Shown piece by piece: positions 1-19,748 of a DNA stretch of 21,503 nucleotides. The notes beneath the pieces are model-generated. The model saw only the letters and a list, made by a program, of their open reading frames with translations. It was not told where the DNA came from and ran no database searches. Source of the stretch: a virus; IMG/VR virus record IMGVR_UViG_3300028384_000983, positions 1-21,503 of that record. One strand, given 5' to 3'. The position numbers were made by a program, and so were the translations under genes. How positions within the stretch are numbered: the stretch's first letter is position 1; the number at the start of each line of letters is the position of its first letter.

Positions 1-2444
1 ATTACGCAGCCGCTATAGGTGCATTGAGCTTTGCTGACGGTGTAACTGCTCAGACAATTTCTGTTCCTATCATCGATGACCCAACATTTGAAGGCGATGA
101 GACGGTTAATCTAACACTGAGCACACCAGGAGGCGGCGCTACATTAGGAACACCGGCAACTGCTGTTTTGGTAATAGTTGATGATGATCAGCAAGTGATA
201 GCGCCTCCAGGGCAAGGAACCATTGACTCTGTTGTCAGAAATGAGGACCCTATACCTGACACAACACCGCCACAGGTTCAAATAACCAGCCCGGTAGATG
301 GCGTCACAGTTAATACAGCAAGTATCACTGTTAGCGGTACTGCTAGCGATGAAACTGAACTGTCAAGTGTAAGTGTTAATGGAGTACAAGCTACATTCGG
401 TGGGGGTACATACAACGCCACTATTACGTTGACAGAGGGATTGAACACGGTAACGGCCACAGCTACAGATAGCAGTAATAATTCTAGTGCGACATCTGTT
501 CAGGTCACGTATGCGCCGGTTGTCAGCGATCTTGAGATTATTACTGGCGGCTATCCGCGCGCGTTTCTATTTCACACAGAGGTAGCGAGCGTACAGGAGT
601 CAAGTAATACTTACGATACGAAGGAACAATATTTTAACACCTTACAGGGTATCAATGTTCCAGCTAATCATGTCGATGAGTATGTGTTGTACAAGGAGAG
701 AAACCCAGAGAAACTGGTATTGCTGTTCCATCAAGGTAGAGTGTTCAGTGACGATACAACAACATTCCGCTTTGATTTTATTGACCGCAGACAGTTTATT
801 GACGGCCACTGGCTGTATCATGAAGGCTCAACTATAACTAGCTTTATATCTACTTCAGCAACGTCTATACCTGTTGCAGATCCGGCGAAGTTCGTAGTAG
901 GACAAGATGCCGCTATGTGCACCTTATCTGGTGGCCAGCCTAACTGGGAAAACTGCGAGCAGATGAGGATTACAGGGAAAAGCGGCAATAACATAATCGT
1001 TAACAGAGCGGAATACGGATCTTCTCCTATTACAGTTCCTGCTAATGGTGGTTGGCTTGCTGCTCATGCTAGTTATTCGTGGGGTGATGTGTCTTGGGCA
1101 CCTAACTTCACCAATCGCTGCCCTGTAGACAGTCAAGGACGTACTGCCAGCGACATTTACATTGATCAAATGATTAGTGAATTAAACGCTGGAGGCTCCA
1201 GGTATACGTTCGATGGAGTCGAGTTCGACGCTTTCGCTACGAGTATGCGCGGGTATACACTTGGAGGTAAACCGCTTATTGATGTAGACGGCGACGGAGT
1301 TGGTGAGGATGGTATATTCAACGGTGTTAATGAATACCAACTAGGGCTTTATGATACCTACAAGCGATTCAGAGAGCAGCTTGATCCTAAGCATTATTTC
1401 ATGGCTGATGCTGCATCATGGACACCTAGCCAAATATTCATAGATGCTTTCGGCGGGATTGAGAACGAAGGCTGGCCAGTAATGTTCGATGCTGAAGCTG
1501 ATAGATGGCCAACAGCGATGAATAGATTGTACTTCTGGAACCAGATGCCTGAGCAGGGTCCTATATTCACGTACATCAATCATAAGCCAACGAATATCCT
1601 TAATGATTTCCGGGCACTCCCGTACTCTAATCATAGGATTGTGTTTGCTGCAGGTGTGTTTACTGATGCTGCGTTAACAACTTTCAATACACCTCCAGCT
1701 GAGCCGGGTCAATTACGAGGAGTTTTTGACGAGTTTTACAAGGGAACTGAAAGGCAATCTGGGTGGCTAGGACTACCACTTGCACCAGCTAAGCATATCG
1801 CTAATGATGCACCAGATCAGCTCAACGGTATCGGCCAGAACATAGGTACGACTTTCGCTAATAAGGTGACAAGCTCTGACTATTCCAAGTCCATTGTAAA
1901 TGGAAACCTGGTCTTGAGCCAAACATCGACCAGCGGTAGCCCGACGTTCACGCTTAATAACGTATCTACTCCTTCTGGGGATATAGTCGTTAGAGTTAAG
2001 ATACAAGCCTCAGAGTCTCCTATTTTTGGCGGCAGGGGTATAGGTCGATTGATAAATGCTCGATTAACACAAGGTTCAGAGATAGTGACTAGTCAAGCTC
2101 ACACTGATTGGTTTGAGGCAAGATTCTATTTCCGTGATGTTCAACCTGTTAACGGTGAAATCGATGTATTATTCACAATGGTTCAGCCTGGTGATGTGAC
2201 AATAACAGACGTATCGGTTCATCAATTACAAGATGTTATGTACAGAGAGTTCGAAAATGGCTTAGTTCTAGCTAATCCGTCGAATAGTCCGTATACATTT
2301 AATCTGGATCAGCTAACGCCTGGAAGGACGTACAGAAGGCTTAACGGCTCTCCGCAGCAGGACCCTGTAACCAATAACGGTACGGTCCAGGGAAATATAC
2401 TAACACTGCCTGCTCGTGACGCCTTGTTCTTAGTAGCTCAATAA
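1..2444 (+). CDS. Partial Calx-beta / Ig-like / glycosidase-like phage surface protein (5' end outside window)
   Basis: The frame is open from base 3, so the start lies upstream; the TTG at 24 falls inside a domain and is not a real start. In order I read a Calx-beta repeat end (about 3-200, with GDETVNLTLS and VIVDDD), a bacterial Ig-like domain (about 265-525, opening with DTTPPQVQITSP), a long region resembling putative TIM-barrel glycosidases (about 535-1830, with YTFDGVEFDAF as a possible acidic active-site strand and a beta insert near 820-1070), a beta-sandwich (about 1860-2235) and a C-terminal glycosidase-type beta domain (YREFENGLVLANP, PARDALFLVAQ). By family knowledge such proteins bind or cut polysaccharide; catalysis is inference. 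It precedes the head-tail connector genes, so it may be a head-associated appendage rather than a tail spike. Its stop overlaps the next start as TAATG. Confidence 0.75.
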   Translation, partial: YAAAIGALSFADGVTAQTISVPIIDDPTFEGDETVNLTLSTPGGGATLGTPATAVLVIVDDDQQVIAPPGQGTIDSVVRNEDPIPDTTPPQVQITSPVDGVTVNTASITVSGTASDETELSSVSVNGVQATFGGGTYNATITLTEGLNTVTATATDSSNNSSATSVQVTYAPVVSDLEIITGGYPRAFLFHTEVASVQESSNTYDTKEQYFNTLQGINVPANHVDEYVLYKERNPEKLVLLFHQGRVFSDDTTTFRFDFIDRRQFIDGHWLYHEGSTITSFISTSATSIPVADPAKFVVGQDAAMCTLSGGQPNWENCEQMRITGKSGNNIIVNRAEYGSSPITVPANGGWLAAHASYSWGDVSWAPNFTNRCPVDSQGRTASDIYIDQMISELNAGGSRYTFDGVEFDAFATSMRGYTLGGKPLIDVDGDGVGEDGIFNGVNEYQLGLYDTYKRFREQLDPKHYFMADAASWTPSQIFIDAFGGIENEGWPVMFDAEADRWPTAMNRLYFWNQMPEQGPIFTYINHKPTNILNDFRALPYSNHRIVFAAGVFTDAALTTFNTPPAEPGQLRGVFDEFYKGTERQSGWLGLPLAPAKHIANDAPDQLNGIGQNIGTTFANKVTSSDYSKSIVNGNLVLSQTSTSGSPTFTLNNVSTPSGDIVVRVKIQASESPIFGGRGIGRLINARLTQGSEIVTSQAHTDWFEARFYFRDVQPVNGEIDVLFTMVQPGDVTITDVSVHQLQDVMYREFENGLVLANPSNSPYTFNLDQLTPGRTYRRLNGSPQQDPVTNNGTVQGNILTLPARDALFLVAQ

Positions 2445-4951
2445 TGGCAGCATTTACGGTTCAGCACTTAGCTTATGACGTTCCCTCCTCGGGGGGAACG
2501 CAAACCGTAACGTCTGTTGATACTACTAAATCAGTAATAATAAACACCGCAAATAACTTCTCAGCCGCGGATAATGCGGATGCAGACGAGAACTCAGTAG
2601 GCATAGATTTAAATTCTGCAACAAGTGTCGGATACACAAGGCAGGGGACAGCATTACTAACTTGCCAGACTCACGCGTCTCTACTTGAATACACTGGGGC
2701 AGCTAACGGGCCAAACGAGTTTCTAATTCGCGGTACTGGAACAGTATCAATTACTGCTGGAAATAGAACAACAACCGCAACTTGTTCTACAACGCCAACT
2801 AACATAGATAACTGTGTTGTATTCTTGAGCGTAACGACTAGTGGCGCTGGGGCTTGGTTTCTTGATGATAAAACCGGTGAGTCTTGGTTATCTGGAACTG
2901 ACACAATTAATTTCGAGCGTGGAGGTTCATCAGGAACAACAACATTCCATTATCAAGTTGTAGAGTTTGTTGGAAGTAATTGGACTATTCATCACGGATT
3001 TAGCGGCGATGTAAGCACTGATACAGGAAGTATAACCCTATATGATGGCCAGAAAGGAACAGGAACAACATCAACAGTAACAAGCTGGGGTAAGGCGTTT
3101 ATTCTTGGTCACTTTAAAGCCGATGACAGCACTGGTAATACGGCTATTGCCGACTTGTGGCCTGTTTATGCCCCTGGAACTGGCACAGGAACAGTTGACT
3201 GGACTTTTGACGCTGGTCGAGACGGAACAGACAACCAGCATTTGGTTTATGTTATTGAAAACAGTGATACTAATTTTACTGTTGCAAGATACAACAGCGG
3301 TGCGATCACGCTACCAGCAGGGAACCATACGCAGACTATTACCGCAGTAACTTCATTAACTGAGGCGATAGTTTTAAATACCTGCGAAACAAGCGGAGGC
3401 GGTAACGCTCACCCGAGAGGTGCCAGATCATCTGGGTTTAACTCTACAACGCAAGCTTTTGCATACTGTTCAATTTCTGGTAATGTTGGACAGATTGAAT
3501 ATCAAGTAATTGATTTCAACGGAATGGATGAGGGCAGTACTGCTCTAACTGCCTTACCTGGTTTAATTTCAGCAACAGCTACTCTTTACGGGCCTACTCT
3601 GGCTCCAGGCTCAGTAACAACGACTCCAGCGCGTATTACGTCAACAGCTACGCTTTACAGCCCGACATTAGCTCCAGGCCAGGTCAGCGTAACAGCAAGC
3701 CTGATAGATTCAACTGCTACTGTTTACAGCGCTACTGTCTTAGCTGGTCAGGTAACAACTTCTCCAGTATTAATTGACTCAGCAGCTACTTTATACGGCC
3801 CTACGGTTCAGCCTGGATCTGTAACTACATCCGTTAGTCTGATTGACTCTGCGGCGACTTTATACAGTCCTGGCGTAAATACTTCGGTATCGGTTGGAGT
3901 TAATCTAATCGATTCTGCAGCTACGCTGTATGGTCCTAGCGTGCTGGCTGGACAAGTAACGGCTCAGGCGCAATTAATTGATTCTGCCTCAACTGTATAT
4001 AGCCCGACGGTTGCTCCAGGGCAAGTAACGACAAGCCCGAATCTGATTGATTCAGCTGCTACGGTTTATAGCTCATCTGCGTTAGCTGGTGCGGTCACAG
4101 CTTCACCTAATTTAATCACTGCTACGGCTACTCTTTACAACCCAGCGGTATTGGCTGGTCAGGTTTCTATTGGACCTGGACTGATTACAGCAACCGCTAC
4201 GCTTTACGATCCGACTGTTGCTCCTGGGGCGGTATCGATATCTCTTAATCTGATTGACTCAACGGCTACATTGTATAGCCCGAGTTTGACGATTGTAACG
4301 ACGATACCGACGCAACTTATTGATTCTACGGCTGTTTTATACGGGCCATCGATAGCAACTGGAGCGGCAACGACAAATCCAGGGTTGATCGATATCACTC
4401 CGACTCTGTATCAGCCTTTTGTGTCTGCTGGGGCTTCACTGGCGGCTCCTGCTTTAATCAATTCGGCTGCTGTTCTCTATGGGCCGACTATCGTTGCAGG
4501 ACAGGCAGAGTTAACGCCTAATCTGATCGATATTACGCCTACTCTGTATAATCCTAGTGTTCAGCCTGGATCTGTCACGCTAACGGCTAATCTGATCGAT
4601 TCTGGGGCCGTTCTTTACACTCCATTACTTATCGAGGGGCAGAGCCTAACCCCTAACCTGATCGACTCGTCAGCGACCTTATACGCGCCCACGATAGCAA
4701 CTGGATCGGTTACGGTAAGCGTATCTCTGATTGACTCTGCTGTTACGATGTACAGCCCGAGCTTGATACAGGGGCAATCGATAGACCTGCAATTAATTGA
4801 TTCTGCGGCTACTTTGTATTCGCCAGGGGTATCAGCTGGGGCAGGTTTAGTCAGTCCAGCGCTAATAGATTCAGCCGCAATACTGTATAATCCTAATGTA
4901 ATAGCAAGGGTTCCATCTGAGAATCCGATAATGTTTGGAGCTAACTTTTAA
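2444..4951 (+). CDS. Repeat-rich phage structural protein, possible fibre (835 aa)
   Basis: The ATG at 2444 overlaps the upstream stop (TAATG), which supports translational coupling. Residues 1 to about 370 contain loosely repeated beta-rich modules; the pairs HYQVVEF/EYQVIDF and WTIHHG/FTVARYNSG mark the repeated ends, a pattern I associate with phage and virus structural proteins. From residue 374 there are 20 tandem units of 22-23 residues with consensus LIDSAATLYxPxVxxGxVT, then a short tail ending MFGANF. No signal peptide or membrane span is visible. The composition (Ser, Thr, Ala, Gly, Val, aromatic Tyr at a fixed place) suggests an elongated fibre or solenoid. Position between the upstream surface protein and the connector gene suggests a virion component, possibly a head fibre. 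Function is inferred; an adhesin role is an alternative. Confidence 0.75.
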   Translation: MAAFTVQHLAYDVPSSGGTQTVTSVDTTKSVIINTANNFSAADNADADENSVGIDLNSATSVGYTRQGTALLTCQTHASLLEYTGAANGPNEFLIRGTGTVSITAGNRTTTATCSTTPTNIDNCVVFLSVTTSGAGAWFLDDKTGESWLSGTDTINFERGGSSGTTTFHYQVVEFVGSNWTIHHGFSGDVSTDTGSITLYDGQKGTGTTSTVTSWGKAFILGHFKADDSTGNTAIADLWPVYAPGTGTGTVDWTFDAGRDGTDNQHLVYVIENSDTNFTVARYNSGAITLPAGNHTQTITAVTSLTEAIVLNTCETSGGGNAHPRGARSSGFNSTTQAFAYCSISGNVGQIEYQVIDFNGMDEGSTALTALPGLISATATLYGPTLAPGSVTTTPARITSTATLYSPTLAPGQVSVTASLIDSTATVYSATVLAGQVTTSPVLIDSAATLYGPTVQPGSVTTSVSLIDSAATLYSPGVNTSVSVGVNLIDSAATLYGPSVLAGQVTAQAQLIDSASTVYSPTVAPGQVTTSPNLIDSAATVYSSSALAGAVTASPNLITATATLYNPAVLAGQVSIGPGLITATATLYDPTVAPGAVSISLNLIDSTATLYSPSLTIVTTIPTQLIDSTAVLYGPSIATGAATTNPGLIDITPTLYQPFVSAGASLAAPALINSAAVLYGPTIVAGQAELTPNLIDITPTLYNPSVQPGSVTLTANLIDSGAVLYTPLLIEGQSLTPNLIDSSATLYAPTIATGSVTVSVSLIDSAVTMYSPSLIQGQSIDLQLIDSAATLYSPGVSAGAGLVSPALIDSAAILYNPNVIARVPSENPIMFGANF
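3563..4927 (+). repeat. 20 tandem protein-level repeats of 22-23 residues (LIDSAATLYxP)
   Basis: The units start at LISATATLYGP and end with LIDSAAILYNP. The core LIDSxATLYxPxV is kept in nearly all units, while codons differ freely between copies (for example LID as ctgattgac, ttaattgac, ctgatcgat). The periodicity is 66-69 bases. Synonymous divergence indicates old duplication under protein-level selection rather than recent slippage. Confidence 0.9.
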
Positions 4952-7187: not shown

Positions 7188-7526
7188 ATGGCCGAATCTG
7201 TAATCGAAAAAGCGAAAAAGCACTTTCTTGACCATATCAATGATATTAAGTGCGTAAAAGTCCCAGAGTGGGATGCGGAGATTTATTTTAAACCTCTGTC
7301 ATTATCTGACCAGGACAGGATTTATAAATATGTCCAGAAGGGTTCTCTTGAATCTATTGCTGAAACATTGATCGTTCGCTCTCTTAACAAGGACGGATCA
7401 AAGATGTTTACATCAGCAAACAAGACCGAGCTTATGCGGATGGTAGATCCTGACATAATGAACAAGATTGTTATGGCGATGGCTGATGATAATGACGAAA
7501 CCCTAGAGGAGATAGTGGGAAACTAA
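7188..7526 (+). CDS. Tail assembly chaperone, short form (gpG-like)
   Basis: A 112-residue protein beginning MAESVIEKAKKHF, with ITS core VPEWDAEIYFKPLSLSDQDRI that is typical of tail assembly chaperones (pieces VPEWDAEIYFKPL and LSDQDRIYKYV). These proteins coat the tape measure while the tube polymerises and are absent from the finished virion. AAGGAG at 7175-7180 sits before the ATG. The stop (TAA 7524) directly follows a GGGAAAC heptamer in the correct phase, which would allow a fraction of ribosomes to move into the -1 frame and make the longer G-T fusion. The acidic C-terminus (DDNDETLEEIVGN) ends at the slip site. Confidence 0.85.
   Translation: MAESVIEKAKKHFLDHINDIKCVKVPEWDAEIYFKPLSLSDQDRIYKYVQKGSLESIAETLIVRSLNKDGSKMFTSANKTELMRMVDPDIMNKIVMAMADDNDETLEEIVGN
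7517..7523 (+). promoter_or_regulatory. Predicted -1 ribosomal frameshift site, slippery heptamer GGGAAAC
   Basis: In the chaperone frame the bases read G GGA AAC TAA, which is the X XXY YYZ form; both tRNAs can re-pair after one step back to GGG AAA. A purine-rich GAGGAG lies at 7506-7511, five bases upstream, and could act as an internal stimulatory ribosome-binding element. The zero-frame stop comes immediately after. Lambda uses the closely similar GGGAAAG at the equivalent G/T junction. I see no obvious downstream stem-loop. Confidence 0.8.
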
Positions 7527-7672
7527 GGGAGGACAAGGAGGTTTATTTTCGCTTTATGTTAGCAGAGAGCTTGCATATCACAATACAGGAAGTGTTGGAT
7601 ATGCCGGTATCTCACTATAACGGATGGAAAGCTTATTTCCAGATAAAATTCGAGAAGAACCATAATGGCTAG
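7523..7672 (+). CDS. Tail assembly chaperone frameshift extension (gpT-like)
   Basis: This is the -1 frame read after the slip, not an independent gene. It is open from 7496 to the TAG at 7670-7672 and gives 49 residues: LREDKEVYFRFMLAESLHI, then ITIQEVLDMPVSHYNGWKAY and a basic end. The MAESL...TxxEVLDMPVSHYNGWxAY pattern is what I expect of gpT-like regions, with the MPVSxxxxW motif. The fusion would be 161 residues (112 + 49). Initiation at the internal ATG 7556 is possible but its nearest AAGGAGG (7535-7541) is 14 bases away, too far for efficient use. It overlaps the tape measure start by 8 bases. By family knowledge the T part recruits the tail tube protein while the G part binds the tape measure. 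Confidence 0.8.
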   Translation, partial: LREDKEVYFRFMLAESLHITIQEVLDMPVSHYNGWKAYFQIKFEKNHNG

Positions 7673-18098: not shown

Positions 18099-18692
18099 CT
18101 ATCCTTTTGATATAGTTAACATTTCTCTGTACTTCAACATTCTTTCTATGAACTTAAATACTAGCTCCTCCATTCTCTGTATGTATTCATTATCCCTGTA
18201 AACGCGAATGATTCTCAAATCAAGGTCAGGATGACGGAACATGAAATCGCACCAGTCACGTCCTGTAATCCATAGCTGGCCCTGTATCTGTGGCTTATAC
18301 TTTGACGGCTCCTTGTCGCTAAGGTAATACTCGATAAATGTCGATCCTTTAGGATTCTTAATCTCAAGCAGCCCATCTTCACCCACAAGGCCATCAGGAG
18401 AGCATCCTACAAGCCTGTCCTCGTTTAAATAGCAGAAGCCTATCTCTTGCACCTCCTCGCCAGTGATAAGCTCATATAGCGCCCTAGATTCAGCCTCACG
18501 CTCATTTCCTGCTTCAGTAAAGACGTTTCCATCAAATGCGTCTACTGGATGCCCAGCGAACCAGTCAGCTAGCAGCTGGTTCATGTAGGTTTTTGATGAT
18601 GCGCTCGGCTTGCCGGTTGAAGTTATGATCTTGTCGAACATTGAGGCACTCGGTATTCCTAATCGCCTCTTCAGTGCCTTGAGGTATGTCAA
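18099..18692 (-). CDS. YqaJ / lambda-exonuclease family recombination nuclease (197 aa, TTG start, N-terminus displaced)
   Basis: A 5'-3' double-strand exonuclease of the PD-(D/E)XK fold; with the ERF annealase it would form a two-component recombination system. Active-site residues are Glu66 (GNEREAESRALYE), Asp100 (VGCSPDGLVG), Glu110 and Lys112 (LLEIKNPK), with the same spacings (34, 10, 2) as lambda exonuclease Glu85, Asp119, Glu129, Lys131; Gln137 (QIQGQLW) follows. RLGIPSAS at residues 10-17 matches lambda RLGVITAS. The frame can only start at TTG 18692 or later because TAA lies two codons upstream; the TTG overlaps the DUF551 stop (TTGA). The expected N-terminus is found in another frame (18702-18667), so this copy is probably frameshifted or shortened and lacks the usual Trp before RLG. 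Confidence 0.85.
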   Translation of the reverse strand: MTYLKALKRRLGIPSASMFDKIITSTGKPSASSKTYMNQLLADWFAGHPVDAFDGNVFTEAGNEREAESRALYELITGEEVQEIGFCYLNEDRLVGCSPDGLVGEDGLLEIKNPKGSTFIEYYLSDKEPSKYKPQIQGQLWITGRDWCDFMFRHPDLDLRIIRVYRDNEYIQRMEELVFKFIERMLKYREMLTISKG

Positions 18693-18702
18693 GAATTATC
18701 AT
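18667..18702 (-). pseudogene. Out-of-frame relic of the exonuclease N-terminus
   Basis: On the minus strand ATG 18702 opens MIILDIPQGTEE, the standard start of YqaJ-type exonucleases, with GGAG at 18713-18710 and a 7-base spacer. After GAG (18669-18667) the family expects W plus about three residues and then RLGIPSAS. Here the next usable frame resumes one base later at CGA TTA GGA. This fits a loss of about 11 bases. Followed in its own frame the ATG product ends at TGA 18565 after 45 residues. Confidence 0.6.
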
Positions 18703-19000
18703 TAGGTGGCTCCGGCAGTGGCATCCAATGGGTTACATTTGGATAAAAGTCTTCGAAACCATATTCGTTGTACATATCTTGATACCAATGATCTAACTTA
18801 GAGTTATAACTAGCCGTTAAAATATTGTGATCTCTATTAGGTTTTGGCCATACTAGTACCTCTGTATGATCACTCGGCAACATATCATAAACGCTTATCC
18901 AGTTATTTTTTAGTATTTTCTGTATTTCATACGCAAGGTCTCTATCTGTTTGTCCAAACCTGTCAAATATAATTTGTGTTATCTTATCCTGACTAGCCAT
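18689..19000 (-). CDS. DUF551 domain protein (103 aa)
   Basis: The protein begins MASQDKITQIIFDRFGQ and carries the DUF551 pattern in its second half: WISVYDMLPSDHTEVLVW, then VTHWMPLPEPP at the end. DUF551 proteins are frequent in early regions of phages and prophages; their function is unknown. ATG 19000 is chosen because AAGGAGG (19016-19010 on the reverse strand) lies 9 bases ahead; it overlaps the ERF gene by 8 bases. A start at 19021 would extend it further into that gene. Its stop overlaps the TTG of the exonuclease frame, while its last codons also hold the older ATG of that gene. Confidence 0.82.
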   Translation of the reverse strand: MASQDKITQIIFDRFGQTDRDLAYEIQKILKNNWISVYDMLPSDHTEVLVWPKPNRDHNILTASYNSKLDHWYQDMYNEYGFEDFYPNVTHWMPLPEPPNDNS

Positions 19001-19748
19001 TTTTGCCGACCTCCTTTTCATTCATTGCCTGAATGCGCTTATTCAAGATACTGTAAGCTTCTACTGCCTGACTCTCATTTAAGAGTTTTACCTCATTTAC
19101 TCCAAAATATGATAAGAACTTTTCCTTGTTGGCTTTTGCGGTTTTCATCAGTGATGATAGGTCATCAGCAATCTCATCTGATACAAGAGAAACCGAAGAC
19201 TGCGCATCATCATCAACATCCTCAGTTGTGGTTATGTTGAATATCTCACGGAGCAGGTAGCGCCTAAGGTATGATCTGGTAGAAGCCAGGCCATGCACAG
19301 CTGTCTTATTCACTTTCCCTTGCATGCCCATATTATCTGGCGGCAGCTCCATTGTGTGCTCTGTGGTGGCTCCTGAACGGTGAGAGACAGTAGCCTTCAT
19401 GGCGACATATCCCTCATTTTGAGGAGGAAAGCTGTTGAATGATACTGCAAATCCCCATTTGGTATAGCATGGCTTGATCGCATTGTTCAGACTATCCAGC
19501 TGCTCATACTTTGAATGAGTCTGATTATTATTCGCATTCTTAAGTACCTTAGGCATTTCTGACTGGCACTTTGACATGTCAATTGCGAAGTCCTGCCTGG
19601 CTTGTCGGTCAAGAATTCGTTCCTGCGCGTCAAGGACCATCTTTAGCTGCTCAGGCTGTAGCTGCCCGCCGCTAATAGCCGACATTAGCGTATTAGTAAT
19701 TTGTGATTCAGCGGTGCTTTCTGTTAGTTGTTTGTTTTCTTCAGTCAT
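18993..19748 (-). CDS. erf: ERF family single-strand annealing protein (251 aa)
   Basis: A single-strand DNA annealase of the ERF superfamily (P22 Erf). Readable marks: AQERILDRQARQDFAIDMSK (about residues 41-60), the ERF core NNNQTHSKYEQLDSLNNAIK and WGFAVSFNS (about 73-107), MKATVSHRSGATTEHTMELP, and STRSYLRRYLLREIFNI (about 154-170), followed by an acidic DVDDDAQ linker and a helical C-terminus. The family pairs complementary strands made by an exonuclease such as the YqaJ protein encoded two genes downstream. The ATG at 19748 overlaps the upstream gene by 8 bases and is preceded by GGAAGAGAG. Confidence 0.9.
   Translation of the reverse strand: MTEENKQLTESTAESQITNTLMSAISGGQLQPEQLKMVLDAQERILDRQARQDFAIDMSKCQSEMPKVLKNANNNQTHSKYEQLDSLNNAIKPCYTKWGFAVSFNSFPPQNEGYVAMKATVSHRSGATTEHTMELPPDNMGMQGKVNKTAVHGLASTRSYLRRYLLREIFNITTTEDVDDDAQSSVSLVSDEIADDLSSLMKTAKANKEKFLSYFGVNEVKLLNESQAVEAYSILNKRIQAMNEKEVGKNG

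Follow-up and report, generated by a model that had tools for sequence, protein, structure and literature searches.

The locus analyzed here raises the question of whether a phage exonuclease gene, whose conserved N-terminus lies in a different frame from its catalytic part, could still give rise to a working enzyme or is simply damaged, either in the sampled phage or in its assembled sequence. The window, i.e. the whole stretch of 21,503 nucleotides that was analyzed, comes from a 23,149-base IMG/VR virus record in which a run of N follows directly after the window's last base, so that the record has the look of a scaffold built from metagenomic reads. The features of the exonuclease locus are as follows.

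18565 to 18702, minus strand: ATG-frame open reading frame of 45 amino acids, its first 12 codons (MIILDIPQGTEE) the canonical lambda-exonuclease N-terminus and its remainder out of frame.
18710 to 18713, minus strand: Shine-Dalgarno-like GGAG, 7 bases ahead of ATG 18702 and 17 ahead of TTG 18692, read from the sequence.
18666 to 18667, minus strand: junction lacking 11 bases that relatives have, from a DNA alignment with the relative L014 and from protein alignments.
18099 to 18692, minus strand: catalytic frame with a TTG start, a YqaJ/lambda-exonuclease domain by profiles, alignments, a structural model and PDB matches.
18689 to 19000, minus strand: DUF551 gene directly upstream of the exonuclease (PF04448, 4.1e-13), its stop overlapping TTG 18692.
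18993 to 19748, minus strand: Erf-type single-strand annealing protein (PF04404, 1.3e-20; phrog_155, 7.2e-36).

From ATG 18702 the minus strand reads MIILDIPQGTEEAIRNTECLNVRQDHNFNRQAERIIKNLHEPAAS, with the stop ending at 18565, and this frame opens with the N-terminus that is standard among lambda-exonuclease/YqaJ proteins. The catalytic domain, from RLGIPSAS onward, lies in the +1 frame relative to this ATG, where TTG 18692 begins a run of 197 amino acids ended by a stop at 18099. A preliminary description of this DNA had pointed to the GGAG 7 bases ahead of the ATG and to the catalytic part in another frame, and both can be read directly in the sequence. It had also taken TTG to be the only start left for the catalytic frame; its overlap with the TGA of the upstream gene (TTGA) is indeed there, and CTG 18674 and ATG 18641 are also in frame, the latter giving a product from which the conserved Arg is lost. 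Erf annealing proteins are the usual partners of exonucleases of the lambda-exo/YqaJ type, and both Pfam and PHROG profiles place such a partner nearby.

Chance does not account for the N-terminal piece found in the other frame. A position-specific scoring matrix covering the nine residues that precede the Trp was derived from 58 relatives and scored over all six frames of the window, and the top-scoring place was LDIPQGTEE, with 20.2 bits. In 200 shuffles of the whole window that preserved its dinucleotides, this score was never reached (median maximum 7.8, highest 17.4), which is the reason for setting chance aside.

Relatives were drawn from scans of IMG/VR and from ten annotated phage regions, giving 95 loci that match an exonuclease; in three of them the contig ends before the N-terminal region, leaving 92 that are readable. 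In all readable relatives a Q-G-T-x-E-W-like N-terminus shares the frame of the catalytic domain, W-x3-R is in frame with the domain in 92 of 92 (in L080 through a variant motif), and both Trp and Arg are kept in all 59 members of a distinct set from which duplicates and loci found via a Trp-requiring pattern had been removed. Set against these 92, the window gene alone breaks the Trp-x3-Arg frame. A TTG start shared by relatives that lack PQGTEE in the other frame would have spoken against the reading of a displaced N-terminus, and as there was none among the readable relatives that reading survives. No really close relative is at hand, because all 365 records with relatives in the phage collection are below 60% identity. 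Plasmids likewise gave matches only below 60% identity, two scans of genome contigs gave no relative, and the Erf gene used as bait found no match in viral contigs. Close DNA-level relatives were found neither in phage records nor, by exact pattern, in viral contigs, sets from which records very near the window are possibly absent.

The nearest relative found, by tree path, is the exonuclease of IMGVR_UViG_3300021381_000187 (L014), which is 44–45% identical and reads MIILDKLEQGTDEW then RLGIPTASMFDK in a single frame. In the DNA alignment with L014 the window gene has one clean 11-base gap at the junction, taking out the Trp and most of the three codons after it. The size of this gap agrees exactly with the earlier suggestion that the Trp and about three residues between EE and RLG had gone through the loss of 11 bases. 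What remains of the gene is open and not visibly decayed: the catalytic frame has 197 codons without a stop, departures from well-conserved columns number 5 of about 34 in the window exonuclease and the same in L014, the end branches are similar, 0.83 for the window gene vs 0.64 for L014, and a search for signs of long decay found no excess over this sister. The open frame together with the lack of excess decay means that the frame break is recent, or not real.

The catalytic frame matches PF09588 YqaJ (E=5.4e-22, residues 8–145) and phrog_149 (4.6e-33), and its catalytic residues E66, D100, E110, K112 and Q135 (E, D, E-x-K, Q) are all kept and are invariant in the alignments. Membership in the YqaJ/lambda-exonuclease family, as judged by homology, therefore stands. 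The 5′-phosphate pocket calls for a Trp and an Arg in frame with the catalytic domain, and only the Arg is present, at residue 10 of the TTG product, the ungapped Trp position (Arg minus 4) being Ala6; this is as the preliminary description had it. In lambda exonuclease the 5′ phosphate is held by Trp24 and Arg28, and a review reports that in mutants of this pocket activity is abolished or barely detectable (PMC7496540). With Ala6 at the Trp24 position and these mutant data in hand, the likely outcome for a TTG product would be a weakened or dead enzyme; the missing Trp lowers any claim of an active enzyme and leaves the homology unaffected. An AlphaFold model of the TTG product has a mean pLDDT of 91.3 and predicts complete folding, with a helix at residues 3–10 in a stretch (residues 1–10) that is less certain, at pLDDT 63.

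The reading toward which we lean is that the gene encodes the nuclease of a phage pair of exonuclease and annealing protein (lambda-exo/YqaJ plus Erf) and that 11 bases directly behind codon 12 were recently deleted, which broke it. Such a deletion would shift the catalytic frame +1 relative to its own start, ribosomes entering at ATG 18702 would make a useless 45-residue peptide, and at best a trace of protein without the conserved pocket Trp might be made from TTG 18692. Against this, translation from TTG would likewise keep the remaining frame fully open and conserved, as it is, and the predicted complete fold of that product (pLDDT 91) points the same way. The frame break, the exact size of its gap, the in-frame Trp throughout the readable relatives and the open, undecayed remainder of the gene are directly observed; what we infer is that the sampled phage really carries the deletion and that function is abolished. 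The deletion may be present in the assembly only, the 11 bases having been lost in assembly or consensus calling from a gene that is intact and ordinary; we regard this as a somewhat less probable account. The gapped, scaffold-like record, the absence of excess decay, and the fact that no relative shares the break are all consistent with it. Yet the junction has no repeat of at least 11 bases that would favor a mis-join (a few 10-mers are shared once elsewhere), and no unexplained frame break disturbs the family matches of the other genes considered (Erf, DUF551, head-tail genes, tape measure). Homopolymer indels are the typical sequencing error, and an 11-base loss is of another kind. A real recent deletion is ranked somewhat above an assembly error.

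Could translation instead rescue the gene as it stands? Ribosomes ending on DUF551 might re-initiate at TTG 18692 and give a 197-residue exonuclease with a replaced N-terminal helix. The overlap of TTG with the upstream TGA would suit this, as would the retention of all the catalytic residues and the pocket Arg and a predicted fold, including the helix, that matches LHK-Exo of Laribacter hongkongensis and lambda exonuclease over nearly the whole product. However, the GGAG serves the ATG, from which it is 7 bases away; at 17 bases from TTG it is not usefully placed for that codon, and initiation there would presumably depend on re-initiation after DUF551. The first ten residues of the product are of low confidence, the Trp24 position is occupied by Ala where lambda pocket mutants are almost inactive (PMC7496540), none of the readable relatives uses such a start, and the normal N-terminus can still be read in the other frame, which makes the change a recent one. 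A functional product of this kind is thus unlikely. It is more doubtful still that after the deletion the exonuclease exchanged its Trp-bearing turn for the new helix MTYLKALKRRLG through re-initiation at TTG and works, or works with an altered 5′-end preference; were the product active, the pocket Trp would be dispensable, contrary to the lambda mutant data. A programmed +1 frameshift joining MIILDIPQGTEE to RLGIPSAS is hardly credible. A shift after codon 12 does yield exactly EE-RLG, but the junction has neither a stop codon nor a recognized signal for a +1 or −1 shift; a −1 slippery heptamer and unusual RNA structure were sought there and neither was found (the fold offers no gain over shuffles, z = -0.30). 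A fusion of this kind would remain without the Trp turn, and none of 92 relatives needs the shift; the junction thus has neither the slippery site or stimulatory structure nor the conservation in relatives by which programmed frameshifts are recognized. Of the four explanations offered initially (a broken gene, TTG re-initiation, a +1 shift, bases lost in assembly), a lesion, real or of the assembly, is the one that gains support, the evidence speaks against the shift, and a functional TTG product looks improbable.

The same record does contain a textbook frameshift site. The tail assembly chaperone gene at 7188–7664 (plus strand) has a canonical −1 slippery heptamer, G_GGA_AAC, at 7517–7523, immediately ahead of its stop; in the −1 frame the reading goes on as LREDKEVYFRFMLAES through about 49 residues until the tape measure gene starts, and the fused product matches phrog_16513, a family of tail assembly chaperones, over residues 2–151. 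This arrangement is of the known lambda G/GT type (PMC5009743). The presence of such a site there and its absence at the exonuclease junction speaks against programming in the exonuclease. Elsewhere on the plus strand, an 806-residue protein at 24–2444, open at the window start, has matches to Calx-beta, Glucodextran_B and Ig-like domains, its larger C-terminal part having no Pfam match, and an 835-residue protein at 2444–4951, also without a Pfam match, has many near-repeats of the type LIDSAATLYSPTVAPGQVT and is perhaps a virion surface repeat protein. Beyond the window end in the same record (G000), a putative replication-initiation-type protein (L013:897-1748) has PHROG matches divided between two parts, and its middle part (NKGYVYLVKDNDIYKIGRTQSIHARM...) resembles a GIY-YIG/T5orf172-type domain.

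Most likely, then, a commonplace recent mutation or a fault of assembly lies behind the locus, and no new mechanism; either way, what it holds is a well-known gene in an ordinary copy that was damaged or mis-assembled. The value of the finding is mainly for annotation, as the record should be flagged for a frame-broken exonuclease beside an intact Erf gene. The L014 exonuclease starts MIILD, as does the ATG frame of the window, and adjoins an Erf-like gene, but it is intact in one frame. L014 has no DUF551 gene between annealing protein and exonuclease, and its exonuclease start overlaps the annealing-protein stop directly, whereas in the window the DUF551 gene (18689–19000) intervenes. The best structural match to the model of the TTG product is LHK-Exo (PDB 3SYY; TM 0.88, 32% identity), which, unlike the window gene, has its N-terminus MEQRTEEWFAARLG in frame. 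Lambda exonuclease (Red alpha; PDB 1AVQ, 3SM4) has the same fold (TM normalized by query 0.85–0.86) and shares with the window protein the catalytic residues and the equivalent of Arg28, but the catalytic frame of the window lacks an equivalent of Trp24 and its normal N-terminus is out of frame.
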